64,000 bases of DNA from Amyelois transitella (Eukaryota > Arthropoda > Insecta > Lepidoptera > Pyralidae), in contig NC_083514.1 of NCBI RefSeq assembly GCF_032362555.1, positions 5,875,001 through 5,939,000 of the forward strand, written 5' to 3'. Below the pieces are notes generated by a model. The model was not told the origin of the DNA, searched no databases, and was given only the letters and a program-made list of their open reading frames with translations. Positions 19,734 to 64,000 of the stretch are shown piece by piece (within the stretch, counting starts at the first letter, position 1; each line of letters opens with the position of its first letter). The position numbers were made by a program, and so were the translations under genes.

Positions 19734-20862
19734 ACATACATACATACATACATAAAATCACGCCTCTTTCCCGGAGGGGTAGGCAGAGACTACCTCTTTC
19801 CACTTGCCACGATCTCTGCATACTTCTTTCGCTTCGTCCACATTCATAACTCTCTTCATACAAGCTCGGCGGTTTCGGGTACTTTTGACCTGACCCTTTA
19901 CCAGGACGTCCTTAATTTGATCAAGATACGTTCGTCTAGGTCTTCCCACTCCGACCTTTCCCTCCACACTCTCCTTGTATATCTGCTTAGTCAACCTGCT
20001 TTCATTCATCCTCTCCACATGACCGAACCATCTTAACATACCCTTTTCTATTCCTGTAACTACATCTTCTTTCAAATCACAACATTCCCTTATCACGCTG
20101 TTCCTTATCCTGTCACTCAATTTCACACCCATCATACTCCTTAACGCTCTCATTTCCACTGCATTTATTCTGCTTTCATGCTTCTTTTGCCATACCCAAC
20201 TTTCACTCCCATACATTAATGTCGGGACCAACACGCCCCTGTGCACAGCCAGTCGAGCCTTTTTGGATAGTTTCTGACTGCTCATAAAGGCATGCAAAGC
20301 TCCATTCACCATGTTCCCCGCGTTCACTCTCCTTTCAATATCACTATCATACTTGCCATCTGATGTAAACTTTGATCCTAGATATACAAACTCTTTCACT
20401 TGCTCCACTTTTTCTCCTCCAATCCAAATATTACATGCTGTCATTTCTTTCTCCATTTCAAAAACCAGTGTTTTAGTTTTACTTACGTTCACTTTCATTC
20501 CTTTCTCTTTTAAAGCTTCATGCATACAGTTTACCATCTCCTGTAACTCCTCCGCTGATGACGCCAGTATAACCTGATCGTCGGCATAGAGCAGACATTT
20601 GACGAGTAACTCATTCATCCTTAATCCACTTTTAGACTCTTTCAAATCTGTCAAACAGCTATCCATAAATAGGTTGAACAGCCACGGTGACGCAACACAT
20701 CCTTGCCTAACGCCTTTCTCAATCTTAAACCACTCAGTGTGCGCTCCGTTTATCCTGACACAAGCACTCGAATCCTCATATAAGGATTTCAGTGCTCGTA
20801 TTAAGAGACTGCTCACCCCATGCATAGAAAGTGCTGACCACAATTCATCAACAACCAAAATC
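19734..20862 (-). mobile_element. 5'-truncated RTE-type LINE with intact 3' half of the RT ORF
   Basis: Flanked by a 13-bp direct repeat TGACAACCAACGT (19721-19733 and 20863-20875), so the ends are exact and the copy is fairly recent. The minus-strand ORF carries reverse transcriptase motifs GVRQGCVASPWLFNLF and YADD (in LLYADDQVILA), then the C-terminal region of RTE-like elements (RWFGHVERM, GVGRPRRTYLDQIKDVLVKG) and stops just before a (TACA)n tail. The apparent start Met of the open frame (20912) lies in flanking DNA outside the duplication and is not the element's own start. The endonuclease and N-terminal RT are missing, so the copy cannot move by itself. Confidence 0.92.
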
Positions 20863-21015
20863 TGACAACCAACGTCCATAATAAAATTAGGTTTTTTTTT
20901 TTGGTATTTCACAACAAATTCCTTTTCGGTTGTAACTACGTATTTAAAGTTACTCGTTGTAAGAAAATGGAGTTATATTGAATTTATTATTGAGATTATT
21001 CGATAACGAAAATAA

Positions 21016-38411: not shown

Positions 38412-41400
38412 ATGCTTTTTAAAATTGAAAGACAGTCTAGTGAGAAACATGAAGATGATTTTTCTCCCAACGAATTAGAAAGATATTCTACGGATTATAG
38501 TGATTGCTCAGAGCGATTCTACAAAGTTTCCCGTGATTTTTCAAAGCAATATGCTCATATTTATTCAGCTAGACTGAATACTTTTCGTAATATTCTTGAT
38601 CCAGTTATTAAAAACAAGTGGCATGGGGGTTACAAAATTTTAAAATTGTGTGAGTTGCGTGAGAAGAATACGGCTTGTGTTATTATTGGAACGTTATTTA
38701 AGTTTCAAGAATTAAAACCCAGCATACTGAAAGAATTATCTGATGAATTGGAAATAATACCTCAACCCACAAGGTTTGTGAGGACAACTTATCTGAATAA
38801 TGTTTGAGACGGTGTACAAGTCATTAAAATATTTGTGACCGATTCATATTTTGCAGGACCCACTTTGTACATGACTCTGATAGTTTGGTCTTAGAAGATG
38901 AACTACAGAGAATCAAGCTTATTGGTGGCTTAATTGATGTGCATCAGGTGGTTACTGGAGTTGTTTGTGCTGTTTTAGGTATGTAGAACACAATAATTAT
39001 AGCTATATATAGCTATATATATATATAATATAGCTGTGTTCATTTGAATGTTTTCATTTTTACATCTGTCTTACATATAATGACTGTATTAAAAAACAAT
39101 TGTGACAAAAAGTAATAGAAACATGAAAAGGGAAAGTTATAAACTTTAACTTTTTGCCATGTGGTGCCCAGCACCAATAGAAAAAAGAATAGGACCACTC
39201 CATTTCTCTCCCATGGATGTCGTAAAAGGCGACTAAGGGGTTGGCTTATAAACTTGGGATTCTCCTTTTAGGCGATGGGCTAGCAACCTGTCATTATTTG
39301 AATCACAATTCTATCTTAAAGCCAAATAGCTGAATGTGGCCTATCAGTCTTTTCAAGACTGTTTGTTCTGTCTACCCAGCAAGGGATATAGACGTGATTA
39401 TATGTATGTATGTATAAACTTTAAAATATATCTACATTTTGTTTATCAGGTTCTGAGGAAGAAGATGGTGTTTTCACAGTAAAAGATGTCTGTTGGGCAG
39501 GTTGTGGCATACAAAAGCCATTGCCCACTCTTTCCAATGACAGGTAAAGTAACAGGCACTACTAACTCTTGCCTACTAATTCTATTTTTTTATTATCAGT
39601 ATTATAGTATAAAACAAAGTTGCTTTCTCTGTCCCTATGTCCCTTTGTATGCTTGAATCTTTAAAACTATGCACCGGATTTTGATGTTTTTTTTTCAATA
39701 GATAGAGTGATTCAAGACAATGGTTTATAAATGTATAATAACATCCATTAAATAGTGGAGGAATACTGTTATTTTTGAGGTTTCTCGTGTGTCGATGTCT
39801 AATCGATGTTGTTGATTATCATATTTTTTTTCTGCTTACATTGCAAACGCAGGCTGAACCTTACAAGATTTATCAAAATAATGTACTTATTATTTGTACA
39901 CATTGAAAAGGTCTACAGGAAACTCCGCAATGGTATATGTCAATCTCTCATGGATATCCCACAAAAACATTTTTGTTATTTACTTTTTTGGACAGATAAT
40001 GGCAATTTTTGAAGCAAATTTAACCAATACAGCATTAATCCTTATCCAATTAAATACATTGTTGCTAGCTAGCTAGTAGCTTAAATACATTGTTGATTTA
40101 ATATAGATCTATATGATCCTTTACAGCACAAGATTTAAATGAATATTTTCAAAGATATTATAGATTTAAAATTGCGGGAAGTAGCGCTTGCGGCGGTACT
40201 GGCCGACCGGGGCGGCGGCAGCGTGTCTATAAAAAGCTGTGATTGTTGTATATAAAGACATTATGTAATGTAATAATTGTTGTAAAAATAAAATAAATAG
40301 TCACAGATTTTCTGTAGTGTATTTAGTATCATCAGCATTGCACTTTCATCAAAAGTTGATCCAGCCATGTAGCTGTGAAAGTGCAATAGACCGATTTTTC
40401 TATTTAAAAGTATTATGATTATGGTGAAAATCTTTGAGAAAGGCCTCTTACTACCAGTGGTCTATTTCCTATTTCAGGTATATCATCCTTGTTTCTGGCT
40501 TAAACATGGCATCAAAGAAGGCAGATCACATGTTCTCCTTACATTTGCTACTTGAATGGCTTTCAGGCATGACTGGGACTGCCACATATCAAGGAGAGCT
40601 GTCTAAAATAGTTCGAGTTATTGTTGCAGGTATTAATATCTATTTCAATTTATTTTTCACTTATATACTGTACAATATGATAAGCTTAATTGAAAAGAAT
40701 CTTAATTTATAAAGCAAAGAGAGTATGCAGAGATTTTGGCAAGTAAAATCTCTGCCCACCAAAGAGGATAAGGGCATGACGCATGATTATTATTTTTATC
40801 ATAATTTAACCATATATTTTACAAGTAAGTTTTAAATTTAGGTGTATATTTTATTTTAAGTTAATATGTTTATAAAAAAAGAAAAAAATTATAAGGAATG
40901 GTAGGTACATCATTACATATGCAATTTTATGTGTATAACTTATAATTTAATTGTACTGATAATTACTATTGAATTTTTTTGTTAGGTGGAGTATTTGCAA
41001 ACTACTCAAATGAAAGCTCACTGAATGAGTCTGATGTGATCGCATCAGCTGGTACAGTGGACACATTCTGTGCTGCTATCAGCGCGGTGGCACCCTTAGA
41101 TCTGATGCCCGGCAGCAAGGATCCTGCGGGCATCATGTTACCACAGAAACCGTTTCATTATTGTAAGTTACATACAGAGCCTAACATTCTTGAAAAGACT
41201 GAAAAGTTGATAGATTGTGCTAGTCTAAAGTAAGAATCCCAAGTTAAAAGAAGAACCCAATTTTAATAACCACAATCCCTTAATAGGCAGTTAAATCCTG
41301 CACAGGATGAGATGCAGCTGGCACAAACTTTAACAGACAAGCATAATAAAGTCAAAAATTTTCTTTACCTGCCGTGTGGTTCCCGGCACCAATACAAAAA

Positions 41401-42738
41401 AGAAAAGGACCACTCCATCTCTTGCCCATGGATGTAGTAAAAGGCGACTAAGGGGTAGGCTAATAAACTTGGGATACTTATTTTAGGCGATGGGCTAGCA
41501 ACCTGTCACTATTTGAATCTCAATTCTATCTTAAAGCCAAATAGCTGAATGTGGCCTTATCAGTCTTAACAAGACTGTTGGCTCTGTCTACCCCGCAAAG
41601 GATATAGACATGATTATATGTATGTATGTATTTTCTTTAGTTTATGTTAGGTCTGTCTGTACTGTCTGTCCTGTCTGCCCTATCTGTCCTGTCTGTCCTG
41701 TCTATCCTATCTGTCCTGTCTGTCCTCTCTGTCAGTCCGTTCTCAGTCTCCTTATAACTAGCATGGAATGGAAGCTTGCATTTGTTGGATGTGCAACTAT
41801 TCCCTTAGTTGCGTTTTAGGTCTTCCATAGAAAGAGATGGGAGTGAAAGAGGTCTTATTTTAAAATGCCGTGAACCACACTCTATGTGTCTTTGATTTGT
41901 TATGCAATAAGAATCTCCTAAATTATTTGAAATTATTATGTTTACTTTGTTACAGGTTTGTTCCCAAAAGCAATTGAATACAAATCATTCAATAGAGTTT
42001 CTAATCCCTATGAATGTGATATCGGAGGTAAGGACACATTAAATGGCACTGCCATAGTCTAGGAATCAGTTGTAATTATATAATTAACATCTATTTTAAA
42101 TTTACAGGGTTCATTTGTTTAGGATCTTCTGGAGAAGCCGTCAAAGATATAATGCGATATAGTAAGATAGATAACACATTAGATATTATGCGAAATACAT
42201 TAGAGTGGCGTCACATGGCGCCCACATGTCCTGACACGGTGCCATGCACGCCATGTGTTGATACCGATCCATTCGTCATAGAGAGCTGCCCAGCTATATA
42301 TTTTAGTGGCAACAGTGATGAGTTTGCGACTGATATTTATGAAGGTATGTAAATGAAAAATATATGTTTTTATCTGCTTAATAAGTATCTGGATGTTAAT
42401 GGTCAAATGGTTAATGTTCTCAAACAAAATAGCGTGACGCGAGGGAAGCATGGTAGCAGGCAGGTTCAAATCCTACCGCATTTATATCAATAACTCTTTT
42501 CTGAGTTATGTACATTAGTTTGAATCATTAGGTTATTATTTCGATATTTGGTACATCATTATGACATGTTAAAAAGTTGGTTCATTATCAGGATATAAAA
42601 TTTTTATTTACTGTTCTACTTTCAGGCAATAGTGGCCAACGAGTGAGACTGGTGTCTGTGCCAGACTTTTGCTCAACTAAAACTGCAGCTATTGTAAACT
42701 TAGCTAACCTGGAGTGCTATAGTATGAAATTCGCATAA
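38412..42738 (+). CDS. POLD2: DNA polymerase delta subunit 2 (p50)
   Basis: Eight exons: 38412-38773, 38857-38978, 39450-39543, 40478-40629, 40986-41162, 41956-42027, 42108-42344, 42626-42738; all GT-AG, total about 442 aa (human 469). The N-terminus has [17 protein letters not shown], a typical p50 OB-fold entry. The inactive phosphoesterase domain follows with [58 protein letters not shown] and CPAIYFSGN. The protein is the B subunit that links the catalytic subunit of Pol delta to its accessory subunits at the replication fork. It is head to head with MEIOB, 716 bp apart, which may be a shared promoter interval. Introns 3 and 5 carry family-A repeats and Helitron-like material. AATAAA at 42755, only 16 bp after the stop. 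Confidence 0.97.
39155..39415 (+). repeat. Family-A repeat, POLD2 intron 2
   Basis: Full-length copy from GCCATGTGGTGCCC to GATTATATGTATGTATG. Confidence 0.88.
39590..40090. repeat. Interspersed repeat in POLD2 intron 3 (TATAGTATAAAACAAAG family)
   Basis: Contains AGTATAAAACAAAGTTGC, GCACCGGATTTTGATG and GCATTAATCCTTATCCAA. The inverse orientation of the first block appears at 3217-3328, and the last block also occurs in the Helitron-like element at 23754-24469. Confidence 0.6.
41370..41630 (+). repeat. Family-A repeat, POLD2 intron 5
   Basis: Full-length copy from GCCGTGTGGTTCCCGG to GATTATATGTATGTATG. A CTGTC minisatellite follows its tail. Confidence 0.88.
41651..41739 (+). repeat. CTGTC-rich minisatellite
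   Basis: Repeats of CTGTCTGTCCTGTCTGTC with C/T variants, about 89 bp, starting about 20 bp after the family-A (TATG)n tail. Confidence 0.8.
42425..42540 (+). mobile_element. tRNA-derived SINE 5' fragment in POLD2 intron 7
   Basis: CAGGTTCAAATCCTACCG resembles a B box, and TTTCTGAGTTATGTACATTA matches the SINE at 61230. Only the first ~115 bp remain. Confidence 0.55.
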
Positions 42739-43124
42739 TGATGTTAATACTTATAATAAATACATAACTGATTTATTTGAATCGCGATTCGTTTAATTTT
42801 TTTGTCCATAATCCTACTGGCGTTAGTTTCGGTTCCCGATTCCTCCGTCCGCGGTGTGACGGTGACCGTATGCAATTTGGGTAAGTCGTATTATGCAGCG
42901 TCCAACAACATAGCAACTGGCTTCTGCTCACCAAACTTTTACAGAGTTACTTATGCAACCCATATGAGTTATAGTTCTTTATCTTGAGTAACAGTTATCT
43001 TTTTTCGAATAATATTTTTAAACTTTCGTTTTCGCTGCATTATTAATTTATGCAAACGGGAATTGACGCGTAAGCATCCTATTTTTCCTGAAATATTTCC
43101 AAGACACATATTTATATTAAGATC

Positions 43125-43350
43125 GGTATCGATGCCGTGTAGTTCACGGCACTTTTGGACTCCACCTCTTTCCCAGGGATGTATAAGGTAACTGAGGGAT
43201 ACCCTAAAAAGCTTGGGATTCATCTTTAGTCAACATTGAATCTAAATTCCATTATTTTTGCCATACCGCTGAACGTAGCCTTTCAGTTTTTTTAACAGTC
43301 TTAATTCTGTCTACTCCTTTTGGGAGATATAGATAGACGTGATATTATTA
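43125..43350 (+). repeat. Family-A repeat between POLD2 and crc (copy 1)
   Basis: GCCGTGTAGTTCACGGCAC start, then AAGCTTGGGATTCATC and ATAGACGTGATATTATTA end. Confidence 0.75.
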
Positions 43351-43429
43351 ATTCGGCTTGAAAATAGTACCTCGTAGTAGAAACGGCAGTAGGTACCTCG
43401 GTACTTATACAAGTTCAAAAGAGGAAGAA

Positions 43430-43630
43430 TGTCGTGTGGTTTTTGGTACTTTAGGACTACTCCATCTCTTTCCCAGGGATGTTGTATAAGGTGACTAAGG
43501 GTTATCCCTTATCACCTTAACTCAACCTGTCACTTTGTGATTCTAAATTCCATTTGAAATGCAGTCTTCAAGACTGTTGGCCTTTTCTACATAGCAAGGG
43601 ATATAGATCGGATTATATGTATGTATGTAT
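43430..43630 (+). repeat. Family-A repeat between POLD2 and crc (copy 2)
   Basis: GTCGTGTGGTTTTTGGTAC start, GATTATATGTATGTATG end. It lies in direct orientation 80 bp after copy 1. Confidence 0.75.
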
Positions 43631-43905
43631 GACTATAGTTAATCTGGAAGAGCGAAGCTAGTTAAATCTAATATCAGTAATATTGCATTTAACAATATCT
43701 ATGATTAGAACTTAGAATTAAACTTTTAGACAGTATTAAAGTAGATATCTTTGCTTGCCTCGTGCGTGTGCTTTCGTAATTTTTGACAGCTGTCAGTTAT
43801 TTTAGGTTATTTCCCCCCCGTTCATACCCTCCCCTTCCATTACTCATCAATGGTTCCAAGTTAATAGACGCGTATTTGTTTTCTTGTGCTATTATTGAGT
43901 TTACG

Positions 43906-43917
43906 ATGGGTTTCTAG
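43906..43917 (+). promoter_or_regulatory. uORF1 of crc-like gene (Met-Gly-Phe-stop)
   Basis: ATG GGT TTC TAG lies in the inferred first leader exon, 47 nt before the uORF2 start. ATF4 uORF1 is likewise only about three codons long; such an element permits scanning and re-initiation downstream. A further short ATG GTT CCA AGT TAA at 43850-43864 would also be in the leader if transcription starts upstream of it. Confidence 0.55.
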
Positions 43918-43999
43918 TTAAGAACATTTGCACACCCGCGTGTGCCTTCACGCCCGTACTCAAAATGCTGTAAGTATCATTTTAATTTTAAATTGCAAA

Positions 44000-46130
44000 A
44001 CGAAGTTATACCTATACTGCGTTCAGTCATGTTTAGCGTCGCATTATTTCCATAGGTACCTAGCTTTCACTGCACAAATCTCGAATCAAGGCTCGAGCAG
44101 AGTGACTGGCTACTTGTGACGAAACACATCGTATTTTCCATCATTATGTGTATGTGTGATCAACTGATCATACCTTTCACACTAGGTACTAAATAAGTTA
44201 GTGGGTCGTAGGGAGAACAGACTGCCGTTGTATGATGTTATATATAAAGTCATGGTTTTTTACGCATTCTTATAATTATTGCAACATGGTTGTTGATAAG
44301 TTACGCTATATTAAATGCACCTCAGAAATTTACAAAAAAGTGAGTTAATAGTGTATACTATGGGTGTATGCATCTCTGTACTCTTTTAAAGGTAGTGAAA
44401 TAAGCTGTGATTTAAATTAAATAGAGAAACTAAGAACAAGAAATACTGGTAAATACTTAGGATTTTAAATGTACATATTTAAAACAAAGAAAAAAGAATT
44501 TCTTTATTTGGGTGCAAAAGCAATATATAATAATAAAAAATTACATGATGCGACCAAAAGGTTTCCACTCAGCATATGGTTGCGTATGTAGTTTGCAAAA
44601 AATTTGTTAATTATTTTAGAAACAATGAACAAAACTTTACTAATACCACAAGTCTCTGCAAGAATATAATTACTAGGTAAAACAGATAGCCCATATCTAA
44701 AATTGTTCTGTTTAAAAAAATTAAAAAATCTTTTTTATTTGACAACAATAGGTAGCTGGGTAACTTACTTTGTGAGAAGGCTTATCAAAGGACTGATGAC
44801 TACCTGAATCATAAAAATATCTGGCTGTAAAAATATTTATTACTTTAATTAAAATTAAATCAGTTTATCATAACAATGTATTAATTAGCTAGTGGTTTCT
44901 AATTATATGTTCGGATTATTGTGAAGTTGACATTGCTTAAGAAAATGCTGCATTGCAGTTTGTTACCACTTCTTATGTACTAATGCTTTAGAAGCAGCAC
45001 TAAATTTAGCTTTAAGTAATTTTTTCCGTATCAACCAATGTTGTGAAACCAAAAGATGTGTTCCTTATTAATTAATAAAAATTTTGATTGGATTTGAACT
45101 ACAATGTTAGATTGATATAAAGGGAAGAAATTAAATTTTGCATATTTTATAAAAAAAAACAGTAAATAATCAACCACTACAGATATTAAATAATTGTAAT
45201 ATGTATTAATAAATTCCTACAATAAACAAAAATAAAATAAAACTTTTACAATGAAGTCTCAGAAATTCAATCAATGGACCATCCATAATTTACCTGTACC
45301 TAGCTTATCTGAAGGGTCTTCAAACATTCAATCAATAGCTTATCTGTCAGATAACTTTTATATTAGTTTCCTATCTTACTAAAGACTGATGTTTATTTCA
45401 GTGTAATGTGTATTTACAGATATTTTCCAGAGAAAAATTAGGAGTGATCTTATTTTTGGTTGAATTAATATGTCAATGTGTTTTTGACACTTATTCCTAT
45501 TTTTGTGTGGCTAGTCATTTTTTTTTTATTTATTTAAACTTTATGCATGTTAAATGTACAACTGGTGGACTTAATGCTACAAGGCATTCTCTGCCAGTTG
45601 AACCTTTGGACGAAACTGAGATGGATGTATTCTTTAAAATATTAACATCAAGCCCAATGTATTCTTTAAAATGTTAAAATCAACACCAAACCCCTAGCGC
45701 TGGTCCCTTAGCTCCTCCTCCTCCTAAGACCTCAGTAGTGGAGGCTACATTGTAAAATCTAATCATCATTTTGTTCATATTGTGACAAAATATTTGCCTA
45801 CCTAGGATTTTTTGTTTGGTTGTGTTGATTAAAAAGATTATATGATTTAGGCTAGTAGAGGGAAAGGCATGACGAAATAGGGTTTTGTAACTTCTTGCTT
45901 GGCTTATTCTATTATATCGACAACCTTATCTAAATGTGGCATACTGTAATTGTTATTTCTTAATTTGAAAACATGCTTTTACAACATAAGTTATTTCACC
46001 ACAAAAAAAAAATAAACTGAAATCATCACGTTCATAAACTTCCGTGATAAAAACAGTTAAACATAGCTGTAGGTACCACGCCAAGAAACGAAACCAGTTT
46101 TAGTTGAAACCTTTTCTACCAACTCGAAAG
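44000..46130. other. crc intron 1, AT-rich
   Basis: Mostly unrecognised. A short stretch at 45520-45640 (AAATGTACAACTGGTGGAC, AAGGCATTCTCTGCCAG) looks like an old interspersed repeat, and 46290-46345 likewise. Confidence 0.45.
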
Positions 46131-46137
46131 CTATGAT

Positions 46138-46196
46138 TTTGCAATGCTGACGGGTACGGTAGCCGCTACGGCTACCGTACCCGTCAGCATTGCAAA
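46138..46196. repeat. Perfect 27-bp inverted repeat, 5-nt loop
   Basis: Arm begins TTTGCAATGCTGACGGGTAC, the loop is GCTAC, and the second arm is an exact complement. It is in crc intron 1 and GC-rich relative to its surroundings. Confidence 0.9.
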
Positions 46197-46739
46197 TGCT
46201 GAGTTATTACACATCAACAGAAATATGATACGGTTGTAAGGTTGTAGAATGGGTTTTTTGATATATTTTAAACAATTTATATTTTAATGTATTAGAATAG
46301 AATAGATTTATTTTCAAAATTGGATACAAGGTATCACTTATTGACGACACATCACTTAAATCTAGGTAATTATAACTACTACCGCTTCCAAAGCGCATGT
46401 GTAGAAGAAGCGGCGGAACAAAAGATATTCCCAGAAGAATAAAATTTAAATAAGTCTAGATCGTGAGAATGACAATTTACATGAAACACTAAATGTGAGA
46501 TATAAGAAGATTACTCTTACGAGATATAATAGACTAATATGTTCTAGGAATCGCATATTGCACAGAGGACCGAACAATTTAATTTCATATGCGTTCATCA
46601 ATTTGCGTTCGTTATCGTTAAACATCTGTATTATGTTTAAAAGGAAAATGTTACTGACTTATAAAATTTAATCAATACACAGCTACTGATATCTCTGTGG
46701 CAAAGTTTACGCCATAGGCATTCCCTCAGGAAATATTTC

Positions 46740-46865
46740 AGCGAAATCTTTTACAGGAGCTAAGCCAAACGGCTGAACGTGGCCTAACAGTCTTTTCAAG
46801 ACTTTCGGCTCTGTCTATCCCGCAAGGGGTATAGACGTGATTATATGTACATATATATGTATGTA
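46740..46865 (+). repeat. Family-A 3' half, crc intron 1
   Basis: AAACGGCTGAACGTGGCC to ATAGACGTGATTATATG. Confidence 0.75.
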
Positions 46866-47768
46866 AAACCACATGAGAGAGTCTGCTATGCTCCATTTCT
46901 TTTTAAAACATACAATAAATTTAAGTTTTTATGGAAACCTGGTCTCTGGTATAAAATCATATAACGTCCTAATAGAAAAATACCGAACGGATTTACTTAA
47001 AATTATTTTGTAAGTTTCAGTTATCTTCTTCGGAAGTAAGCTGACACGGGCTTCATGCATGATTTTAATTGATATTGATTAGCTCTAGTAACGTATACAT
47101 AGTTAATTTGTAATGTGGACTGACACAATTGCGCAGTTTAGTTAGGTAGTTCACATTTTAGTGTTTTATAGTAGTTTACACTGAATAGGTATAAAGGCAC
47201 GTAGAAAAGTAGCAATTGCAAGGACGAAACTATATATTAGGTAGGTACTTAGATAAAGATCCATGTAGATAGGATTTGAGGCGCGTGGAGTCCTAGCAGA
47301 AAACCTACTAAAGAGTGCCATTTTTTTTAAATAATAGGGTAGGATAGGCCGTAGCAGTCACCCGTTTTCCTCGTGGACCAACTGATATGCGCAACTAGAT
47401 GTGTTGTGTCATAAGGATATATTTTTTAAATTATTCCCATAGACACAACCACATTCATACGATATGATAAACTGAGAATTATTTAAACGTTCAACGTTTT
47501 TGTGATATTAAAACATGCTGACTAATGACCTCGTATAGACTAAAGAAGTATTTGTAGTACCTAACGTTAATGGAAAAACTACACAGTATTTCTCGATTTT
47601 TAAGTAGAGGATGATTTTCTCAGAGAAACATGTTTTCATATTTGTGTTTTATTATTTCGCTGTCGTCCTTTTCAATCCATGTTCATGCCAAATTGTAGTT
47701 TTCTAGAATCAAGAATCTCTTGACTTAATTATAAGGGAGATAGGTAAAAGGCGAAAAATATTGTATGT

Positions 47769-48028
47769 ATGCCGTGTGGTTCCCGCACCGATAAAAAAAG
47801 AAGATGACCACTCCATCTCTTTCCCATGGGTGTCGTAAAAGGCGACTAAGGGATAGGCTTACAAACTTGCGATTCTTTTTTAGGTGATGGGCTAGCAACC
47901 TGTCACAATTCGAATCTCAATTCTATCATTAAGCCAAATAGCTGAACGTGGCCATTCAGTCTTATCAAGACTATTGGCTCTGTCTACCCCGCAAGGGATA
48001 TAGACGTAACCATATGTATGTATGTAAT
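47769..48028 (+). repeat. Family-A repeat, crc intron 1
   Basis: Full-length copy from GCCGTGTGGTTCCCGCACC to the ATGTATGTATG tail. Confidence 0.88.
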
Positions 48029-48721
48029 CTAAGCTATCTTGGCGCGAACTCGCCGGTAGACCTTGAGTATTAACAACTATATTTATCGCGTTCATTGTTG
48101 TATGCCGAATTCTTCAATTAGAGGTATTTTATAACTCATTGAACTTGGAACGAAGTAAGATCATTTCACATACTTACTATACTTCTTATTATAAGGTGTT
48201 TTAAGACTGGGTGGACTTTGGCCTGGTAAAGTAAATTGGAAGCGTCCTTGTTTTACAAATTTTACAATATTTGGTTCATCAAACATTTTGTGGTTGTGTC
48301 TAACTCGCAAACATTCCATCGAGTAGGGCCTTTATTAAATTGATATCTTTTATTTTCAGAGCCAAAATGGCGCCCTCACCGGATATCACCATCCCTCGAC
48401 CACTATCATCATCACCTTTGGACACTGATCTCTACCGGCTTGTACTTTTATCTGTGGTATGTATCTTATTATGAAACTTATTATTTAATTGTTTCATTGT
48501 TTACTAATTTAAAAATACATTTTCTATATTAAGAATTAAATTTTAGTACTGCTGTAATTCGGTAAAAGTGCTGCGTAAAAATTGTTATGATTTTTAATTT
48601 TTTACATTCATAACTATTTTTTGTAATAATACGGACATTCCAAACGAATGTCTTATCTTATATATACGTGAAAGACATTATCGGGGCATTGCACCCGTCA
48701 CGAACTATTTTTGTTTTACAA

Positions 48722-48905
48722 TCATATACATATAGTCACTTTTCTTTCTTGGAGGGGTAGACAGATACTGCTAAATCCCTTCACCTTTCACTTCATTCTC
48801 ATAAAATTTTTAAGAAAATTTGACGGTTTAGGGTACTCTTGACTTTTTTTTACCAGAACGTCCCCTTTTTGGTAAGGTACGTCCGTTTTACGATGTTTCC
48901 ATTTT
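48722..48905 (-). mobile_element. RTE LINE fragment just upstream of the crc coding exon
   Basis: Degenerate match: ATAGTCAC, GGAGGGGTAGACAGA, GACGGTTTAGGGTACTC and TACCAGAACGTCC correspond in order to the LINE 3' end. It ends about 40 bp before the exon at 48944. Confidence 0.65.
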
Positions 48906-48962
48906 AACATGTTTGTTTCATAAGAGATTTTATAAAATTTCAGAACATCAACAACACCAACA

Positions 48963-51900
48963 ATGAGTGCAAGCCTATGGGACCAGTCGTTGGCTTCGGC
49001 CAGTGGCCTGCTAACTAATGAAGAATGTGCCAAGCTGCTCGATTGCGATATCTTCAACGATGACGGTTTGTTTATTTTACTCTTTGAAATCGGCTTTCGT
49101 GAGGTGTAGTTTGTGATAGATTATTATGTAGTTTCTGATACTTGGATGATGGTGATGCTCAAAAAGAGGTAAACAAATATTGGTAAAACAACAATCTGAT
49201 CCGCTCAACCAAGATTTTTTCTAAAGGAAACTCTGATAAAGACCCAGGAATCGGAATAAAATGTATGGTATACCAAATGACAAAAAAGTCCGCTGAGCTA
49301 TCGATATCATATCGGTACCCTATTAGAACATTTAGTTTATCAAACTTGAGCGCCATTAATATACATTGACGATGCGGGATATAGATAAAGCAACATTGGG
49401 TGGGCAAATGTGTAGTCAAAGCAGCAGCCAGATGTTATCGCGTGTTGAAACGGATCGTGGGTCCCTTCAGGGAGAGGACGCTATCGGGAATAACGCCAAA
49501 AGGATTTAAATCTATTTTCTTCCATGTATTTCTATCGATTTCTTATATTCAATACACCGTTTGTAGAAATATGTAGATTCCACAAAAGGTCAGGGAAAGG
49601 GATATTCCTAGTAAAAAGCAATTTATGAAATCAAGAAAACCTCATAAAAATGAATAGGAAGATCCTAGAAAGTGCATTTCTTGTCTGTTGCTTGTTGAGG
49701 TTAGGCCTTAGTTGGAGGTATACCTACCTCTAAATAATATGGCGGAGATTGTTCAGTTCATCGTGGTGTCTGTCAAAAAACAATGACGTCTTTTCCCTGT
49801 CAATGTTTTTTATTCCGTCTCCTAATGACTCATTTCCATACTCTTAGTCTAGTCTATTAAAACCAGTTCAGTTCCTACAAGCGTCGTTTCGTTTATAACA
49901 AAAGTCTGTTGACTAGCCCTGTGCCGTACCGACCCTTCTATTACCTTGGTATTTTAATATCTACAAGCCTATAAAACATCTATTTGGCTCGTCAGCCCAC
50001 CTTCAGATTCGTTTACCACGTTACAGATTAAGAGATCTATATTTCGGCAATATAGATAGAATTATAAATAATATTGACATTATAATACATACAGGATTTG
50101 CTTCCTATAGAAACCAGATTTTACCCTATATCCATGAGTCATAGGCGCACCTGGGCTCCTCACCAGGGAGGTGAGGATGTAACCGGCACTAATGTTAAAA
50201 CAATCAGACCTAAGTGACACGTAGGTCTGATTGTTTTCTCTGCAGATTTGACCCTTTAGCTTCTTTCAGGTTACATTTGCTATTTGTCTTATCATCTTCT
50301 ATTGTGTACTGACACTTTTTTGACACTGGGTTTAAAATATATAGTTTACAGCCACTGTAAAGTATATTTTTTAACCCTGAATGGAAATGAACAGTCTTTG
50401 AATTGAAGATGCGGAGATAAGAAAAGTGGAAAGCGAACGATGGAAAAGTAGACCCCTGGCCCCAAAGTATAGTGGCGGGCTGGGAACATGCCAAGATGAG
50501 AAAGAGGACATAAACGGCTGAGACAGAAGCCGCAACTAAATCACCTTTTTCTAAAAACGTCTTATTATAATATACTGTTGGTTTATTCACGTAAATAATC
50601 TGATTCGAAACTGATCTTTTTTTTTAACATTTACAATGTAAATGGTCGCCAGCTACCTGCTAAATGAGACTAACTACTTCACCAGTTAAATCGTGGTTCC
50701 TTGAATAGTTACTACAGTTGGATATTGGATACGAGGCTCAAGATATCAAGGGATCAAACACACAGTCTTTCACTATGAAAAATGCCGTGTTGTTTCCGGC
50801 ACATTCGAATCGAACCCCTCTACATGTTTCTCATGGATATCGTAAAAGGTGACGAAAGGGTAGCTTTTTATAGCGATCTGTCACTTTTTGAATGTCAATT
50901 CCATCATAAAGCCGTACTGCTGAACGTGGTCTTCCAGTATATTCCAGACTGTTGGTTCTGTTTACCCCGTAAGGGATATAGACGTGACTATATGTATGTA
51001 TATAAAAATATAATAAACTTTCACTTGGTATAATGTATATAATATCACTTAAAACAAATGTAGTGTCTAGTCATTGCTTTCCCGTAATGAAAGAGAAACT
51101 ATCTACATTTGGAATATTTTATAAATTTATTCGTAAGTACTTTATTGTTTATATTTTGTACAATCAAAATATTAATAAAATCAAAATACTTAGATTACAT
51201 CGTGGCGCTAGTGTGTCGGTATTCTTATTCAACTGATTGGATGATGGTGTTGAAGTCATTGTACCTAATGGAAAACATGATGAATGCTTTAGTTATCGAA
51301 GATGAATGTATAGTGTGTGTTTGTTACTTTTTCACGTAAAAAGTCCTCAACGGATATTCATGAAACTTTGTTAATCGTAATAAAGTTAAGATATTGGAAT
51401 ATTCAATGAGTTAAAATTTGTAGAGATTCAACGCGAACGAAGTCGCGGGCACAAGCTAATAGTTTTTTTATAAAAATCAAAATAATTAATGAAAACTTTT
51501 CGATTTTTTTTGGTTAAATTGATGACACTTGTTCAATGGTAAAATGGTTACCATCCCTTCCAGAAGTTTACAGGTAGATACCTGAATTTGTTAGGCCGAA
51601 ATAGCCTCAATTTCTTTAATGGCTATTATTTCATTCATTTGCATGCAGAAATCATCAATGTATATTTAGTACAATGATGTATGTTGTACATACATGAAAA
51701 CATCCTTCGGTCGCGCAGGGGTTGGCAGAGACTACATTTTTCCACTTATTACTTCATTGGTTTCATTCACTTTCATAACTCTCTTATTTATCTTTTAGGC
51801 GGACTTAATGCAATATGCATTACCTAACATTCTCGTTCAGTACGATCATGTGCCTTCCCCTTCCAACGTTCTCATTCACGTATAGTTAAATTATTTTTTA

Positions 51901-54900
51901 TTTTTGATTATCTTCGTAATTGCCTATGATGTTTCCACTATTTACATATGTAACATATATTCTACAAAAGTTAAAAGTTTGTACATACATATAATCACGT
52001 CTATATCCTTAGTTTGTACATGCGCGGTTATTTTTATGGGCGAGATTAAAGGTAATTTACATTTACAATGATTTGATGCTAGTTCGAATAGACTTTTGGC
52101 AAAAAAAATGATAAATATGTATGTGACTAAATGACTTAACATCAGGCCAAACCGCTGAGTCGTAAAAATTAAAATTTGGCATTACGGTTTATTGCATGCT
52201 TCAGGGGTGCACCAAGAGAGGATTTCCTGAAATTCCCGCAGTAATTAGGAAGTATTTTCATTTCACGCGAGCTTAATCTAGTAAATTCAATATAACCACT
52301 GCTATGAAATGGCGAGAATTTTATGACACCTGAAGTATGAGTGCAAATAAGAGCTGGGCTAGTAGAAAATATTTTTTTTACATCTAAAGAGATGCGTCCC
52401 GTAGTTTATATTTTAACTCGATATCTTCCTTTTGTATTTAGCGTTTACTCGTTGTTATTTATTTATTTAAACTTTATTGTACAAAATACAAATGTATAGC
52501 ACAATTATTATGTTTCTTTTTAATCTAAAACATTTTTTTATTATTAATATTTATGGTATTATTTTTATAAAAGTGATATAATTTTTCCGAGGAAAGCATG
52601 AAAATTAACATTTGAAACTCGTCACCGATAATATTTTTTTTAAAGGATAAATCATAAAATATATAAAAACTGAACTAGTAAATATCATGATTTTAATCAT
52701 AGCCCACTATTTATAGTGTCATATAAATGCCACAGGTCCTTAAAAATTATACTAAGCTACTCAACTTTGTAATTTTAGACAAAAACGTAGAAATGTATAT
52801 AGAGCAAAACCGTTAGTTTTGGAATTAATGGTTAGTGGATTTCCAGCACAGACCATTTTTCCAGGAATTTGTGTTTAGAGTCATTCTGCTATTAATGTTT
52901 ATTATAGTCACATTTTTTATGAGAATTTTTATTACTTGATGAACATGATGCTAAATTGCTCGATATGCAAATTATTAATTAATTTTTTTCTGACATATAA
53001 TTATATAAATTAAATGCGTCTTTTATTAACCTTTTGACCGATGATAATTTACGGACAATATTCCGAATGATAACTGTATTCTCTATAAAAGGGGGTATGA
53101 AAATATCTGCAGTTATCAATGAAGTTCTCGTGTCAGTAAAAGACAATTTATTAAAATTAATCTTAATTAGACACGTTCGTCTCAAGACTGTCGCCCCCCA
53201 CGAACTCACCTCATGCGACAGATAAAACGGTAGGTCAATATTGAAATAGATATGTTATCCTTCACATAATGTATATTTCCATCCAATTTAAGATAATGAT
53301 CGTTACATAAAACATTTTTTTATACTGTGGGCGCGACACTTACAGAAAATTTTCTTCAGGATATTTAATTCACATAAAAAACTGAACAAAAAGAAAAATA
53401 AACATTGATATGATTTTGGGGATGATAAAATAAGGAATGAAAATTTGTCACCAAAGCTTTTTAATATTTTAAGTAAACTAAACAAATGAACATAAAAGTT
53501 GGTATTAATGGGCCTCATTTTTTGATATTTGGCATTTAATAGTAATAATATAAAAGGCAGATTTATGTTACAGGAAGGTACTAAATTTTCAAAAATGTAA
53601 GATCTTGTAATTGGTCCAGGATTTGTAAAAAATACTGTTCTGATTATGAAGTAAAAAATAGTCATTATCTTGGTATTAGATTGCCCTATATACGAACTAA
53701 CGTACACCATACATACATTAAAAGAAAGACAATCTAAGATGAGCTTGTATGGTAGGGTCAACTGGGGATGATTATAGATAAGACATTTGTTGCCTATGTC
53801 AAGGGCGGCTGGAGTCAAAAGGATAGAAAAGGATAAAGGGTACCTTTCATCCCGGCTAAAAGTGTTGTTCACGTGGTATTCGCAATATACGAATGACGAA
53901 GTGCACAAGCGTTTCTGCCGGCAAAAGCTTGTATCGAAATTCATGCGCAAACTAATTTTCCCTTGTCCCAGGACAGGCAAAAATACCTAAAGCTGTATTT
54001 TGTGTAGTAAAAACTCTTATTTATTCACTAGTTGCCACGCCGGAACGAGGGTGTGTCATAATAATCACTCCTTTATCACGTGACAGTATGGAATAATAAT
54101 ATAATAGCGGAGATAAAACATGACGTCGGGAGCATTGCTCAAAACATATTTGTTTTCAGTTGCTAGTCTTGGATGGGCATGTTTTCTACAGTCCATTGGA
54201 TGTTTTCCTTAATTTATCTTGTATCCAATGAAAATATGTTTTGATATTTAATTTTATTATATCATATTATCGCTCATGATTTATTCCATTATTGAGGAAC
54301 ATAGGTGGTCATGAGACTTGTTTTGCACTGATTAACGCATCAGGGTTGTGCAATGTGCATCTTGATAGATGAACTAGAAACTAATTAGTACCGATCGATT
54401 TCAATCTGTTACGATGGGGTAGGTCATGTTTTATAAATGCAGATATTTTATAATAGTTTATTGCGTAAAAACATTCTACGCTGATTTACATTTAATTTCT
54501 AAAAACAAAAACGCCATGAGGTCAGCGCTAACCAACATCTCTATGTATTACCGAATCTATTCGATTAAGCTGACAAGAAACTATCAAGTAGGTAATAATA
54601 ATTAGTTTCATCTAAATCTGAAAATTTATAACACCTGTGTTTTACAGTAAATATTTTGTTTTTGGAACACCATCTATCCAGGATGATTCTGCCACTATAT
54701 GCCACTTTTTGAATGAAATTGTATCGACGTTGCGCCTTTAATCTGTTATAAAAATTGCCTATGGACATCCCTAATAACTCACGCATCTGTCCGCATGCTA
54801 AGTAGTCGCTTTGTTTATTAAAAAAAGTTGTTTAGTATCTATCCGAACATCGGTTCGGATAGATACTAAACAACTTTTTTCACAACACACAACGATCGCG

Positions 54901-57900
54901 TTATCTTAGTATTACTTAATTTTGCCGATATTGTATGTTTTATTCGTTATATTGCGGTGTCTATAATTTTCAGTATGTTTACTTATGACTTCGTTTTGCT
55001 GCCTTGCAAACATCGAGTAATCTCTTCTTAGCTGACACAGAGGAAAATTTCAAGCTCGACAAAACAATAATATTTGTGACTTGCAACTGCACATGGCGCC
55101 ATTGCGCTTAGTTACGATGATTTAAAGGCATCATGTTTTAAAATATATTAGTCGATTTAATAATTTTAATAAATAATCAAATACATATTTGCAATGGCAC
55201 TGTGGAAGAGTTTCTCGGAGAGCCTAATCTTTCTTCTATCTATCTATCTATTGAAATAAAATGAGAATCAGATCGATTTTTTGACTAAATGACGTATCGA
55301 CGCACTGCCCAAACCTGTTGGGTCCAGAGATTTGAAATTTGGTTTGTTCCAACTTGAAGGAAATTTAAAGGGATTTTTTGCATATGGCTTAATCATGCAA
55401 TTGAGATTCAAATAGTAACAATTTGCTCTAGGCCATTGACTAAAAGAAGAATCTCAAGTTTAAAAGCCTATCCCTTAGTCGCATTTTACTACATTCATGG
55501 AAAAAAGAGGGTAACAGCGTTCTCTTGTGTCCATAAAATGTATATTTAAGCAATCTTGGAACTCTAAACCTCTGCAGTAAGGTGACATATAGGTTGACTT
55601 TGGGTCTATGCTCGATAACACATGTCAGAATGTCCAAGTTATATTAGAAGTTAAAAAAACTAACTTAAATATGGTCATTGTTTTCCCCTTTGAAGTGATT
55701 TATTCCTATGATATCATGTTAAATTTACCTGGATTGTATTAATTTTACTTATTTTTTGCGTAGTATAAAGAGAGAGTGTGAGTAATCAAAGTGAATAATA
55801 TAGTTATGTAAACCTTTAAAGTTTGTCGAACACAACAATTGCCCTATTCCAATAGAAAAAAGAATAGAACTACTCCATTTCTTTCCCATGGATGTCGTAA
55901 AAGCGACTAAGGGATAGGCTTACAAACTTGGGATTCTGCTTTTGGGCGATGGGCATTCAAATAATGACAAGTTGCTACCTGTCATTATTTGAAATTCAAT
56001 TCTATTATTAAGCCAAATAGCTGAACGTGGCCTTTAGTCTTTGTTGGAACTATGTACATTGTACCCTGTAAGGAATTACAGACGTATAATATTTATGTAT
56101 GTATGTATGCGAACTCAACAAACAAACCAACTTTAAATCACTCAAAATGGCCAAATAAAAGTGCGGTAACTAATTCGAATATTATATGTGTTCTATTCTC
56201 TATAACTTGTTCAAAATTTTAAGGGTTTATTATTTATTTAATTTTACTTGCTTACTCATGTGAAATTTTATTGCCTTCCCGTCATTATTATATTTTTTTT
56301 GGTAAATAGGTACTTTAAAGTATTTTTTTTCTAAGAAAAGAAGAAGGAATTTAAGAAAAGGAAATCTTTAGATGGATGTCGTAAAAGGCGACTAAGGTAC
56401 AAGGCGATGGCCTAGCAACCTGTCGCTATTTGAATCTCAATTCTATCATTGAGCCAGGCAGCTTAATGTGGCTTATCGGTCTTTTCAGAACTGTTGGCTC
56501 TGTCTACCCCGCGGGGGATATAGACGTGATTATATGTATGTATGTAATCCTTAGATGGTTTGGTCATGTCTGGAGGATGAATGAAAGCAGGTTAACTAAG
56601 CAAATATACTAAGAAAGTGTAAATTGGACTGTTGGAGTGGGAAGGCCTAGACGAGCGTACCTTGAACGCCCTACAAATTGGAGACGTTCTAGTAAAAGGT
56701 CAGGTCAAGAGTACCCGAAACCGACGAGCTTGCATGAATAATTATGAATGTAGATGAAGCGAAAGTAGTATGCAGGAATCAGTAGTGGTCTCTGCCTACC
56801 CTCCCAGGAAAAGGGCCTTTTTGTATGTATGTAGTAAGGAATTTGTATGTATGTAAAAAGGACTACTACAAAATCCTTATAACATCAAAATCGCCTTAGC
56901 TGGAATAAGTCAACCACTTAAAAACTTGAGATTACGGCTCGCAAGCGCAATCGCTTAATGGTAAATTATAATTCGATTAAATTTTATCAAAGTAGGGATC
57001 AAATATCCAGTCTGCATAATAATAAATAAATAATTTAAAAAAGATATAAATAAAATCTAAGACTAATTATGTAATCTATGGATGAGTTGGCCCATTTTAA
57101 TAAAAACTTTACTAGTATAACTTTCAGAGAATCCATCACGCTTTCATCTTGGAAGCTGTTGTAGAGAAGAAATGTTTAGCCACTAATGATGAATGTATGA
57201 ACAGCTTGATTATGAATGAGCTTACTATCATCTTTTAATTCGAGTGAGTTTAGGGCCTGATCTGCATCGCAAATTCGTACCACCACGTAAACAAAACGAT
57301 CCAGTATAAATCGCACTAAAACTGAGTCGTACAAAACCGAACCATGACGTGAAACCGAGAACTCTTATAGCCAGGGCTGTATCTTGTTAGGCGATTAGGC
57401 GCAAGGAGCCTAGGTCCTGATAGCAAACGAGGCCTATATGTAGCAGATGGACTTATACTCGTATGTACTTGTTTTTTATTAGAGATCATGCGGTACTATT
57501 GCACCCATTTGTTGAATATTTATCGGTTCGTTTTAATACGTAATGGAATTATAATTAATATCTGGTATTAACTAGTTCCTCATTGGCTATCAAAAATAGC
57601 TTGAATTTATTGCCATGTAAAAAAAAGATTATCAAAAGTCACTTAAGTCAGAGATACCGATTTAATATTACGATTTCAATAAGATTTGGTCGTTTTTAAA
57701 AATTCGTTGTAAAGGGTGGCACTTCATTACTGTGTCAAATTACAACAAAATCCATTAAGTTGCATCGGTTGTGGGTTGATAGATAAGATTTGAATTGATT
57801 AACCTTTCCCTTTATATACTGATTATTACCAGTGTATAGTTTATTTTTTCTTCGACAGAGCTCATTATTCGATCTGTTTGGATACAAGGTAGTGGGTGAA

Positions 57901-60717
57901 ATTTCTTTGGATTGTATCTGGGGAATCACTGGGAATAGAGTGAAGTAAGAATTTTCATTAAAGTGACTTTAAGAATTAAATTTAAAAATAAAAGTATTTA
58001 CTTTAAGAGGTCTTAATCAAGCTAAGTAAATGCTTTTTTATATGTTTCATGACTGGTAAGCAAAGTAGCAAAAAAAAAAAATTGTTTAGTAAAAGATGTT
58101 GTCAAGCTCATTATACCCATAGGTCGTGTTAAGTTTTGTGTAAGTTATTTCTAGCAATATGAATATTCAGAAATTGATATTTAAATGTCTGCTTTCCAAG
58201 CATTTCCACCTTTCCGTAGCACAGATAGTGATTCAGTGACAGATAAGTTAATTTCGGCTGATGTAACCAAATTTGGTTATTGCGTCGGTGACCAGAACTT
58301 TTTAACAATCATATATCCGTTTAGTTCTTATGAAATTATTTTATTTGTTGCTCCAAAAGCGGAAGTTTTAGACTATAGTATATATTTACGCATCTGTGCC
58401 GTGAATTTAATAAAAAATAGAATATTGTGAAAAGTTAATGGTATAGAAGTGAAGAATTTGTGGTATAGAAGGTAACTAATGAACTAATTTATGTTGCATT
58501 ACCACAGGTAATTTTCTTTTATAATTGTGTATTTATTTTGAGTAAAGAAAAATATGAAATTGTTTTGTTTCTTTTTAATGTAATTCTTATAAAAACGAAT
58601 TCAGCAGCAACAAATAGCAATTTCACAATTTTAATACTTAACAATGTGAAATTGCTAATCTAAATGGGGAAGTTTTTTTTTTCATTTGCACACTGGCATC
58701 TTCAGAACACAAATAAATATACAGAACGAAATCAAAGAATAATATAGTTAAAACGTTTTTAAGGAATATAGGTACTAAAGAAAAAGAAAAATTATTTTAA
58801 AAAAGTTGATAAATAAACATTTGCAAATAATTTTATTTTTGTGTCACCTGAAAATAAGGTCTTGTAAATAAATTTCACTTTGCTCTCGTTTGGATATTGT
58901 GGTTTCCCGACTGAGTAAAAAGGACAACGGCAAATAGAGGCAATTAAAGAGTAAACTTAATTTACTATGAGGTTATCATGAAATGTTCTGTCACGCAGTT
59001 AGCTAACCTACAAAATTTTGTCAAATATCAATCACTTCTTAAACTTTCAATAATTTAAGGGCACTGACTTCTGTAACATATAAATGTTTCAGATTATATT
59101 CAGATATTTTATGTTTGAGTAGTTGAGATTAAAGACATAAAATTTGTTTCGTTTGAAAGGGAAATTACGATTTATTGAAGTTAATTGAAAAAGGCTTACA
59201 ATGTAAAGTTGAATAAGAATACAAATTTAGAATTCTGCATTTCTAAAGTATATACTTAATTTTTTTTTATAAACCTAGAAGACACTCTACACGCGGCTCC
59301 ACCCGCGCCAAACGATAATCCTGATATTTCCGTTCCCGGGGGACTTAAAGCGCTCTTAAACCACGTCAGGAAGCGAACCTACTTGCCCAAAAGTTACTTT
59401 TCTTGACCTAGCGATTCAGGCCGTACGTTGATATGTCAGACATCGGTAAAATTTTCTAAGGCAGTTTCATCTATGAATCTAATAAAACGTTAAAAAAATA
59501 TTCTTTGAAGAAAAAAAAGAAGCGATAAATGAGAAATATTTTTCATTTATCGCTTCAATTTTTTTTTCAAAGATTATTTTTTTAACCTTAATCTTTAGTT
59601 CATAATTATGAGCCTGTCAATTTTCATCCGAATTTTTGTTTTACAAGAACGAAGTTATTTAGAGCATTTCACTGGTATTTAAAAATGTATGGCTTTGCAT
59701 ACCAAAGAAGCTAGAAACATTTTATAAGAACATTTTCATATACGCCATATCCGTGAAAATCCTTAATCGCCAAGTGGCCAAATCTTTAATCTTTGAAGAG
59801 TGCATTTATTTTTTATAACCAAATTGTTCTTATTGTTTCAGCCCTAAATAGATCGATAAGTGACCTCTAATTAAATTGCTATTGGTCGAGGATGTTTTTA
59901 TATATGAAGTTATTGTTGTGTCATTATCAAATAAGATTTAAAGCATCACGACATCTGGGCGTTGTTTTGACGTAACATCGTGCGACGGTTATCGTTCCTA
60001 TATATATTGACGTCTTCAGTCACTTCGTTGTATTTTGTCCATTACTTATCTAAGCTTATTACCTTGAAGCCTCTCCGAGATATTCCAGTATACTCCGCTA
60101 ATTATTTCTAAATAATTAAAATTATATCGTTAATCAGTGAAGGCTTAAACTTTGTGCAAAAATGTGTTGTTACAAAAGTAGCGGAATGTGTGATCTGTGT
60201 AGAGAGTTCCAGATGTCCCTTTTTCAAAGTAAGGATTTTTATAAGTTAAAGTGGACTGTTAAAAATATGTTAGTGATTAAATTTGCATGACAAACTTATA
60301 AGTGGTCTTCCATGAATTGTTTGGTCAAGTTTAAGGGCCGAGAAAAAATACGTGGAATGATTTTTATATCAAAACATATTAATTTAATTTACTTTAAACT
60401 TACTTATTATGCGCAATCGCCTCCGCGACATTTTATACATAAAAACGTAAGATTTTATTTAGGAAGTTACCTCTTAATTTACTATACCTAGAGCGAACTT
60501 AATAAATGTAATTTTGTCATAAATATATAAATGTTTGATTTATTCCCAGATCTGCTCAAGTCTCTCCAGGCTGCGCCGAAGCTGGAGGCGAGCCACTTCG
60601 CGCTGCAGGATGACCACTCCAACACCTTGTACCCGCCATCGCCGCCCGAGACCAAGCCCAGCCCCGCTGAGCTGGCCAACGACATCCTGCAGCAGCTGGA
60701 CAACCAATGCAAACAAG
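48963..60717 (+). CDS. crc: Probable ATF4/ATF5-type bZIP factor (crc), 5' coding exons only; partial
   Basis: Main ORF starts at 48963 (context AACAATGA). Coding exons seen are 48963-49065 (phase 1) and 60550-60717 (phase 1); the rest lies past the window. The peptide begins MSASLWDQSLASASG, with acidic/hydrophobic stretches (ECAKLLDCDIFNDD, DLLKSLQAAP) and PPSPPETKPSPAEL, resembling a transactivation domain. No DNA-binding domain is in the window. Identity is inferred mainly from the leader: a 12-nt uORF1 at 43906, then a spliced 58-codon uORF2 overlapping the main start by 56 nt in another frame, the arrangement known for ATF4 and ATF5 genes. The translated peptide is not one I recognise by itself, and another uORF-controlled factor is possible. 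The 11.5-kb intron holds repeats, hairpins and a second candidate first exon (60018-60228). Two LINE/family-A fragments lie close upstream of the coding exon. Confidence 0.6.
50197..50237. repeat. Perfect 16-bp inverted repeat, 9-nt loop
   Basis: AAAACAATCAGACCTA, then AGTGACACG, then TAGGTCTGATTGTTTT. Confidence 0.85.
50783..51003 (+). repeat. Family-A repeat, large crc intron
   Basis: GCCGTGTTGTTTCCGGCAC start, GGATATAGACGTGACTATA end. Confidence 0.8.
51320..51456 (+). mobile_element. Helitron-like 3' fragment
   Basis: CCTCAACGGATATTCATGAAAC to GCGAACGAAGTCGCGGGCAC then AAGCTAAT, a degraded CTAG end. Confidence 0.5.
51690..51800 (-). mobile_element. Degenerate RTE LINE fragment
   Basis: ACATACATGAAAACATC followed by GGGTTGGCAGAGACTACAT, TTTCCACTT and TTTCATAACTCTCTT, in LINE order. 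Confidence 0.6.
52280..54560. other. Large crc intron, unrecognised AT-rich DNA
   Basis: No supported gene. A long minus-strand open frame (53303-53980, 225 codons) has hydrophobic, low-similarity translation and is treated as chance. Confidence 0.45.
54821..54880. repeat. Perfect 28-bp inverted repeat, 4-nt loop
   Basis: Arm begins AAAAAAGTTGTTTAGTATC and reaches CCGAAC; the loop is ATCG; the second arm is an exact complement. Confidence 0.9.
55385..55510 (-). repeat. Family-A fragment, large crc intron
   Basis: Reverse copy of the middle: AATTGAGATTCAAATAGT, GAATCTCAAGTTTAAAAGCC. Confidence 0.65.
55845..56110 (+). repeat. Family-A repeat, large crc intron
   Basis: CCAATAGAAAAAAGAATAG start and TTATGTATGTATGTATG tail, with a diverged 3' end. 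Confidence 0.8.
56370..56546 (+). repeat. Family-A 3' part, fused to LINE fragment
   Basis: GGATGTCGTAAAAGGCGAC to GATTATATGTATGTATG, immediately followed by LINE sequence. Confidence 0.82.
56547..56835 (+). mobile_element. RTE LINE 3' fragment fused to a family-A repeat
   Basis: Plus-strand copy coding for WFGHV and MNESRLTKQIY, with frame-disrupting changes afterwards. It ends in CTCTGCCTACC...TTTGTATGTATG. It begins exactly at the (TATG)n tail of the family-A copy 56370-56546. Confidence 0.8.
56836..59480. other. Large crc intron, unrecognised AT-rich DNA
   Basis: No recognised coding exon, RNA gene or repeat was found by reading. Confidence 0.4.
59489..59586. repeat. Near-perfect 44-bp inverted repeat, 10-nt loop
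   Basis: Arms share GTTAAAAAAATA, CTTTGAA and GAAGCGATAAATGA, with about four mismatches. It lies about 480 bp upstream of the candidate alternative crc promoter. Confidence 0.8.
59968..60228 (+). promoter_or_regulatory. Candidate alternative promoter and first exon of the crc-like gene
   Basis: TGACGTAA (59968-59975) and TGACGTCT (60008-60015) are CRE/ATF-like sites around a TATATATAT run (59999-60007) and a TCAGT initiator-like motif (60016-60020). The exon that would follow has no ATG until 60162, where ATG TGT TGT TAC opens a 22-codon Cys-rich ORF (MCCYKSSGMCDLCREF) to a consensus donor GTAAGG at 60229. Its phase (1) joins exactly to the coding exon at 60550. The TATA-to-initiator spacing (about 19 bp) is shorter than usual, so the exact start is uncertain. 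Confidence 0.45.
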
Positions 60718-61229
60718 GTAACTTTTTATATTTCTTGATGATATCCTGATGTCTAATAAACTAATGCTAACGGCGAAAACCGGACAAGGAGGGAGAAATG
60801 ACGGAAAACGGACCTCAGGACCCGCAGCATTGCTGTTGCTTGCTACCGCACAGATTCAAAGATGACAGTGATTTTTATTAAGGTCTAATAGTTAAATAAG
60901 ACGTACACACCCACCATACTACAGAGGCTTGACATCCAATTCAAACAAGGTTAATTTTCATATGTTGATAATCTTGATGTCTAGGAATTAAACAGGACGG
61001 ACGCTCCAACAACTATTCAGGGGGTAAACAACCAATTCATAAAGGTAACCAACCATTCATATTTTCTGCGCTAAATTAAATTTATCCAGACCAAAATGGG
61101 GATCATAACAAGAGGATATTATTTGCAACTGTTTCCTCCTCCAGAAAAAGTCGTCCTTCTCCACATCAAATTATAAAGCAATAAGCAGTCTATTAACTTA
61201 AAAAAAAAACTATTAACTTTAAAAAACCG

Positions 61230-61535
61230 GCTAAAATGGGCGCAGGTTCAAATTCGGCTCGGCCGTATACCAAGACTTGCTTTTCAGAGTTATGTACATT
61301 ATTCTGAGGGTTAACCGATACTCTTACGGTGAGAGAAAACATCGCGAGGAAACCTACATATTCAAGCAACTGAATGTATAACCATGATTTAATGAGTAAG
61401 GTTCCTCTGCAAAGTTTGCGAAAGTCAGATAGGAGTCGCCTGTAGAAAACCTGACTCACCCGATCTAGGATCATGGTCATCAGAAAGGTAATTACTTAAA
61501 CGGGACTAACGACAGAAGGAAGAAGAAGAAGCAGT
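61230..61535 (+). mobile_element. tRNA-derived SINE copy with (GAA)n tail
   Basis: Plus-strand copy: B-box-like GGTTCAAATTCGG near 61245, CTCTTACGGTGAGAG, AACCTGACTCACC, GGATCATGGTCATC and a terminal GAAGAAGAAGAAG. No clear target duplication was found. Confidence 0.75.
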
Positions 61536-63989: not shown

Positions 63990-64000
63990 TGGATGTTTGT
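63990..64000 (+). other. Possible acceptor and start of next crc exon (very weak)
   Basis: CGTTTACAG at about 63981-63989 could be a 3' splice site, and the remaining 11 bases would be read in phase as Gly-Gly-Cys-Leu after exon 60550-60717. There is too little sequence to judge. Confidence 0.12.

Follow-up and report, generated by a model that had tools for sequence, protein, structure and literature searches.

A predicted spliced leader in the stretch of Amyelois transitella DNA analysed here (64,000 nucleotides, below called the window) quite probably marks the beginning of an insect ATF4 (cryptocephal) gene that is controlled by delayed re-initiation, the best-supported reading of this leader. 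Paired uORFs in insect ATF4 are already published: according to the section of PMC4176352 on insect leaders, every insect ATF4 homolog for which 5' UTR information exists carries such a pair, and uORF2 of all insect ATF4 mRNAs contains a second AUG in the same frame, with a strong context. The same section terms a uORF1 of 2 or 3 amino acids permissive and describes a weak-context uORF upstream of uORF1, which it does not call universal. Four AUGs are present between 43850 and the main ATG of our leader, and each of them has a place in this plan.

Anatomy and proposed mechanism of the leader

All elements that an earlier note had claimed for this leader are present in the sequence (Table 1). 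The tiny uORF1 was found as a three-codon frame, short as in insect ATF4/crc. Joining the predicted exons (43969/48360 and 48456/48944) reproduces the claimed uORF2 of 58 codons across three exons, which is in a different frame from the main ORF and ends 56 nt beyond the first base of the main ATG. In the joined sequence a splice-junction TGA, composed of TG from exon 2 and A from exon 3, stops the main frame upstream of its ATG, as had been stated. The stop of uORF1 and the first AUG of uORF2 are separated by 47 nt.

Table 1. Features of the leader and of the main ORF in window coordinates. AUG contexts and phases are read directly from the DNA; transcription and splicing as drawn are predicted.
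Feature	Position	Strand	Details
Upstream uORF	43850..43864	+	ATG GTT CCA AGT TAA (MVPS-stop), four codons; T at -3 (weak), G at +4
uORF1	43906..43917	+	ATG GGT TTC TAG (MGF-stop); context TTTACGATGG; read from sequence
uORF2, first 5 nt	43965..43969	+	AUG context CTCAAAATGC; closes exon 1
Exon 1 end (predicted)	43969	+	donor gtaagt at 43970
Intron 1 (predicted)	43970..48359	+	4.39 kb; interrupts uORF2 codon 2
Exon 2 (predicted)	48360..48456	+	97 nt (1 mod 3); uORF2 frame open across whole exon
Intron 2 (predicted)	48457..48943	+	487 nt; interrupts uORF2
Exon 3 start (predicted)	48944	+	carries main ATG 48963; donor gtttgt after 49065
uORF2, last part	48944..49018	+	stop TAA 49016-49018; out-of-frame overlap with main ORF
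Main ORF, first coding part	48963..49065	+	34 codons plus 1 nt within exon 3, up to donor gtttgt
Main ORF, exon 4 (predicted)	60550..60717	+	phase match; GC 0.62, third-position GC 0.85

The first AUG of uORF2 has A at -3 and C at +4. In addition, exon 2 contains a second in-frame AUG (48367), whose context GCCAAAATGG is strong and which opens 54 codons to the same stop; this is an addition to the earlier note, which had not used it. Together with the short uORF1 and, on the predicted splicing, the long overlapping out-of-frame uORF2, this second strong AUG is common to our leader and the insect ATF4/crc leaders in the relevant section of PMC4176352. A weak-context uORF upstream of uORF1 may also be shared with these leaders. 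The uORF at 43850, whose context is fairly weak, may be the candidate for this further arthropod mark; it lies within the mRNA only if transcription begins upstream of 43850, so that the mark fits only under this condition and if the MVPS context counts as weak. The section on insect leaders gives no intron positions; in our leader uORF2 is split by two predicted introns.

In Drosophila, the part of PMC4433282 consulted describes two uORFs in crc-RA as well, the second of which likewise runs out of frame into the main ORF, overlapping it by 125 nt in comparison to 56 nt in our leader. In the same part, a reporter is described in which mutation of uORF1 lowers and mutation of uORF2 raises the output.

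We infer re-initiation and a stress response in the moth leader from its anatomy. Ribosomes would translate the three-codon, permissive uORF1 and stay on the mRNA. As long as eIF2 is plentiful, they would re-initiate at either of the two in-frame AUGs of uORF2, the first of which would be reached 47 nt on, and the overlapping uORF2 would serve as a decoy that can capture a ribosome at two points. As its translation ends past the main AUG, the main ORF would be shut off. When eIF2-alpha is phosphorylated and ternary complex is scarce, late rearming would allow ribosomes to pass both uORF2 AUGs and to use the main AUG. The distance from the end of uORF2 is 47 nt to the exon 3/4 junction and 215 nt to the end of exon 4, so that translation of uORF2 could also open the mRNA to nonsense-mediated decay.

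Identity of the gene

Based on the leader, identity as crc/ATF4 is likely, and the reading of the earlier note, a moth crc gene under integrated-stress-response control, is probably right: its leader part agrees with the published insect ATF4/crc plan. Against this identity, no bZIP was seen in the window. Under the ATF4 reading this domain would lie beyond 64 kb. A crude bZIP motif was not found in the six frames of the whole window, and Pfam reported no bZIP in the three forward frames of 49066-64000. A Pfam scan of the same kind across 38808-48709 recovered exon-split domains of a DNA polymerase delta subunit, which indicates that such a scan can see split domains, although a short, intron-split bZIP could still be missed.

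Downstream of exon 3, the predicted exon 4, which is absent from the earlier note, extends the main ORF to 90 codons and is still open at 60717. It ranked first among the candidate exons between 49.1 and 64 kb in a list preselected for a GC of 0.47 or more and scored on GC and length, and it was joined to exon 3 on phase alone. Read in another frame it obtained an equal score; the third-position GC favours the main frame. That a GC-rich exon follows in the fitting phase suggests a main ORF that genuinely encodes protein. A possible alternative last exon was observed at 59279-59406 (+), with an acceptor, a phase that fits exon 3, and 42 codons followed by a stop; an AATAAA is located at 59481, and the product of 76 residues would end without a bZIP. 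The third-position GC of this segment is only 0.51, and it may be due to chance; it was set aside.

Searches for relatives gave no confirmed members in collections that, by their description, make this a weak test: 24 stretches matched a pattern in viral_contigs, a viral collection, and 239 in genome_contigs, a prokaryotic one, with no confirmed relative in either. The PDB gave three matches (E 0.5, 0.52 and 1.7), which we take as chance. Peptide words from the main ORF (five) and from uORF2 (one) were absent from the papers searched. Among the papers listed, none dealt with a moth ATF4, judged on titles and the starts of abstracts, and none of those on ATFC and chaperones in Bombyx concerned this leader.

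It is unlikely that the leader belongs to a different stress-gated gene with a similar 5' end, for instance an Xrp1-like gene or another regulator. The first 90 residues of the main ORF match no Pfam family, which would suit such a gene, and the part of PMC8514241 consulted describes an overlapping uORF2 in the leader of the long Drosophila Xrp1 isoforms, just as in our leader, together with a response of Xrp1 to eIF2-alpha phosphorylation. However, an Xrp1-like gene fits poorly, as the predicted uORFs of Xrp1 in D. melanogaster are very long (124 and 288 residues in the same source) in comparison to 3 and 58 residues here, and as our leader has the second AUG in strong context that belongs to the ATF4 plan of insects. 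According to that source, Xrp1 also has short splice isoforms without uORFs, and its uORF2 in D. melanogaster is similar to what forms the N-terminal part of the main ORF in other species of the genus, which sets a precedent for a decoy and a coding frame trading places between species.

Splice sites, chance and the surroundings of the leader

We consider it quite improbable that the true leader differs from exons 1 and 2 as joined by eye and that the uORF pattern is a product of chance. The leader (236 nt, from a start at 43850 that was chosen by us and is not a mapped transcription start) was subjected to 20,000 dinucleotide shuffles. An out-of-frame uORF that overlaps the main ORF and has 40 codons or more appeared in 19.6% of them, and in 4.3% it was accompanied by an earlier uORF of at most 4 codons, so that the two-uORF pattern alone is weak evidence. 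Adding the second in-frame strong AUG lowers this to 0.2% (0.225%), with the reservation that the features were picked after inspection of the sequence and that this last one was drawn from PMC4176352. With the second strong AUG, the pattern is better than chance.

The choice of splice sites has an influence as well. The basic pattern is found in 18 of 77 combinations of plausible exons 1 and 2, and a looser acceptor threshold gives 41 of 168, which again leaves room for a chance leader. The full pattern, for which a strong context at the short uORF was also required, occurs in 2/77 and 2/168 combinations, and the observed pair is one of the two; the other combines the same exon 1 with an alternative exon 2 at 44056-44339. 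At a stricter splice threshold the observed exon pair falls outside the candidate set, and two of the seven remaining combinations show a slightly looser pattern; their exon 1 donors, 42027 and 42344, fall where the upstream gene ends.

The splice sites themselves speak on both sides. By a rough score with generic weights, the donor of exon 1 (115th of 3624 GT sites on the + strand) and the donor (67th of 3624) and acceptor (87th of 3341 AG sites on the + strand) of exon 2 rank within the best 2 to 3 percent. By the same rough score, the acceptor (813th of 3341) and the donor gtttgt (438th of 3624) of exon 3 are unremarkable, as a chance leader would allow. The earlier description of these sites as consensus splice sites is therefore upheld for exon 1 and exon 2 and does not extend to exon 3, whose sites are ordinary. 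A further argument against a chance leader is the GC content of 0.43 in exon 1, whose start for this figure was put at 43741 by us, and of 0.49 in exon 2, both above the 0.33-0.36 of the surrounding 4-kb blocks. An alternative acceptor of exon 2 lies 2 nt downstream (AGAG) and was set aside; it would shorten the frame of the first uORF2 AUG to 23 codons and keep the 54-codon frame.

Just upstream, a gene resembling DNA polymerase delta subunit 2 spans 38412 to about 42330 (+), with the Pfam domains DNA_pol_D_N and DNA_pol_E_B. As its last Pfam match, DNA_pol_E_B, is at about 42.3 kb on the same strand as the leader, there is room for a first exon here. Within intron 1, 46138-46196 (+) is an inverted repeat whose 28-bp arms match perfectly around a 3-nt loop (RNA fold of 46130-46205: -59.7 kcal/mol, z -13.9). 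It may be a fold-back element or give rise to a hairpin RNA; Rfam reported no family at gathering score anywhere in the window. The motif GCAAGGGATATAGACG occurs four times, at 6076 (-), 37164 (+), 39379 (+) and 47991 (+), as part of a dispersed repeat, and was found 0 times in 100 shuffles; the repeat has no match in viral_contigs. Other ORFs include one at 22698-23396 (+), rich in methionine and glycine at its start and with an RRM_1 match in Pfam, which we presume to be similar to ENOX proteins, a retroelement reverse transcriptase (RVT_1) at 19758-20912 (-), and an ORF with a DUF4817 helix-turn-helix match at 10251-10586 (-), perhaps derived from a transposon.

Predicted splicing across uORF2

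On the predicted exon map, either skipping of exon 2 or retention of intron 2 would remove the overlap of uORF2 with the main ORF. Without the 97 nt of exon 2, translation from the uORF2 AUG would continue in the main frame and give the protein eight additional residues (MLTSTTPT); the overlapping decoy would be gone, with both short uORFs still in place. Such an in-frame outcome arises by accident for about one in three skipped exons and is for this reason a prediction and not evidence. With intron 2 retained, uORF2 would end 488 nt before the main ATG and six further AUGs would be added. A transcript that lacks exon 1 is predicted to lose uORF1 and to keep the strong-context decoy.

These outcomes allow the speculative and very improbable scenario that exon 2 acts as a splicing switch over the translational switch: its inclusion would provide the inhibitory decoy, its skipping would yield ATF4 without stress, and transcripts that start in intron 1 and are spliced into exon 2 would be without uORF1, retain the second, strong AUG and remain shut. 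Among the titles and starts of abstracts in the literature searched, none concerned splicing inside an ATF4 uORF, from which we do not claim that it is unpublished. The parts of PMC12816580 and PMC7495428 consulted do not name introns in the crc leader, and both agree with the known model.

If the gene is ATF4, the moth adds one more insect with the published leader plan. Beyond this, the exact predicted exon map implies that uORF2 exists only after splicing, which opens up a possibility that can be tested by RNA-seq: tissue-specific skipping of exon 2 or retention of intron 2 may alter the stress switch.
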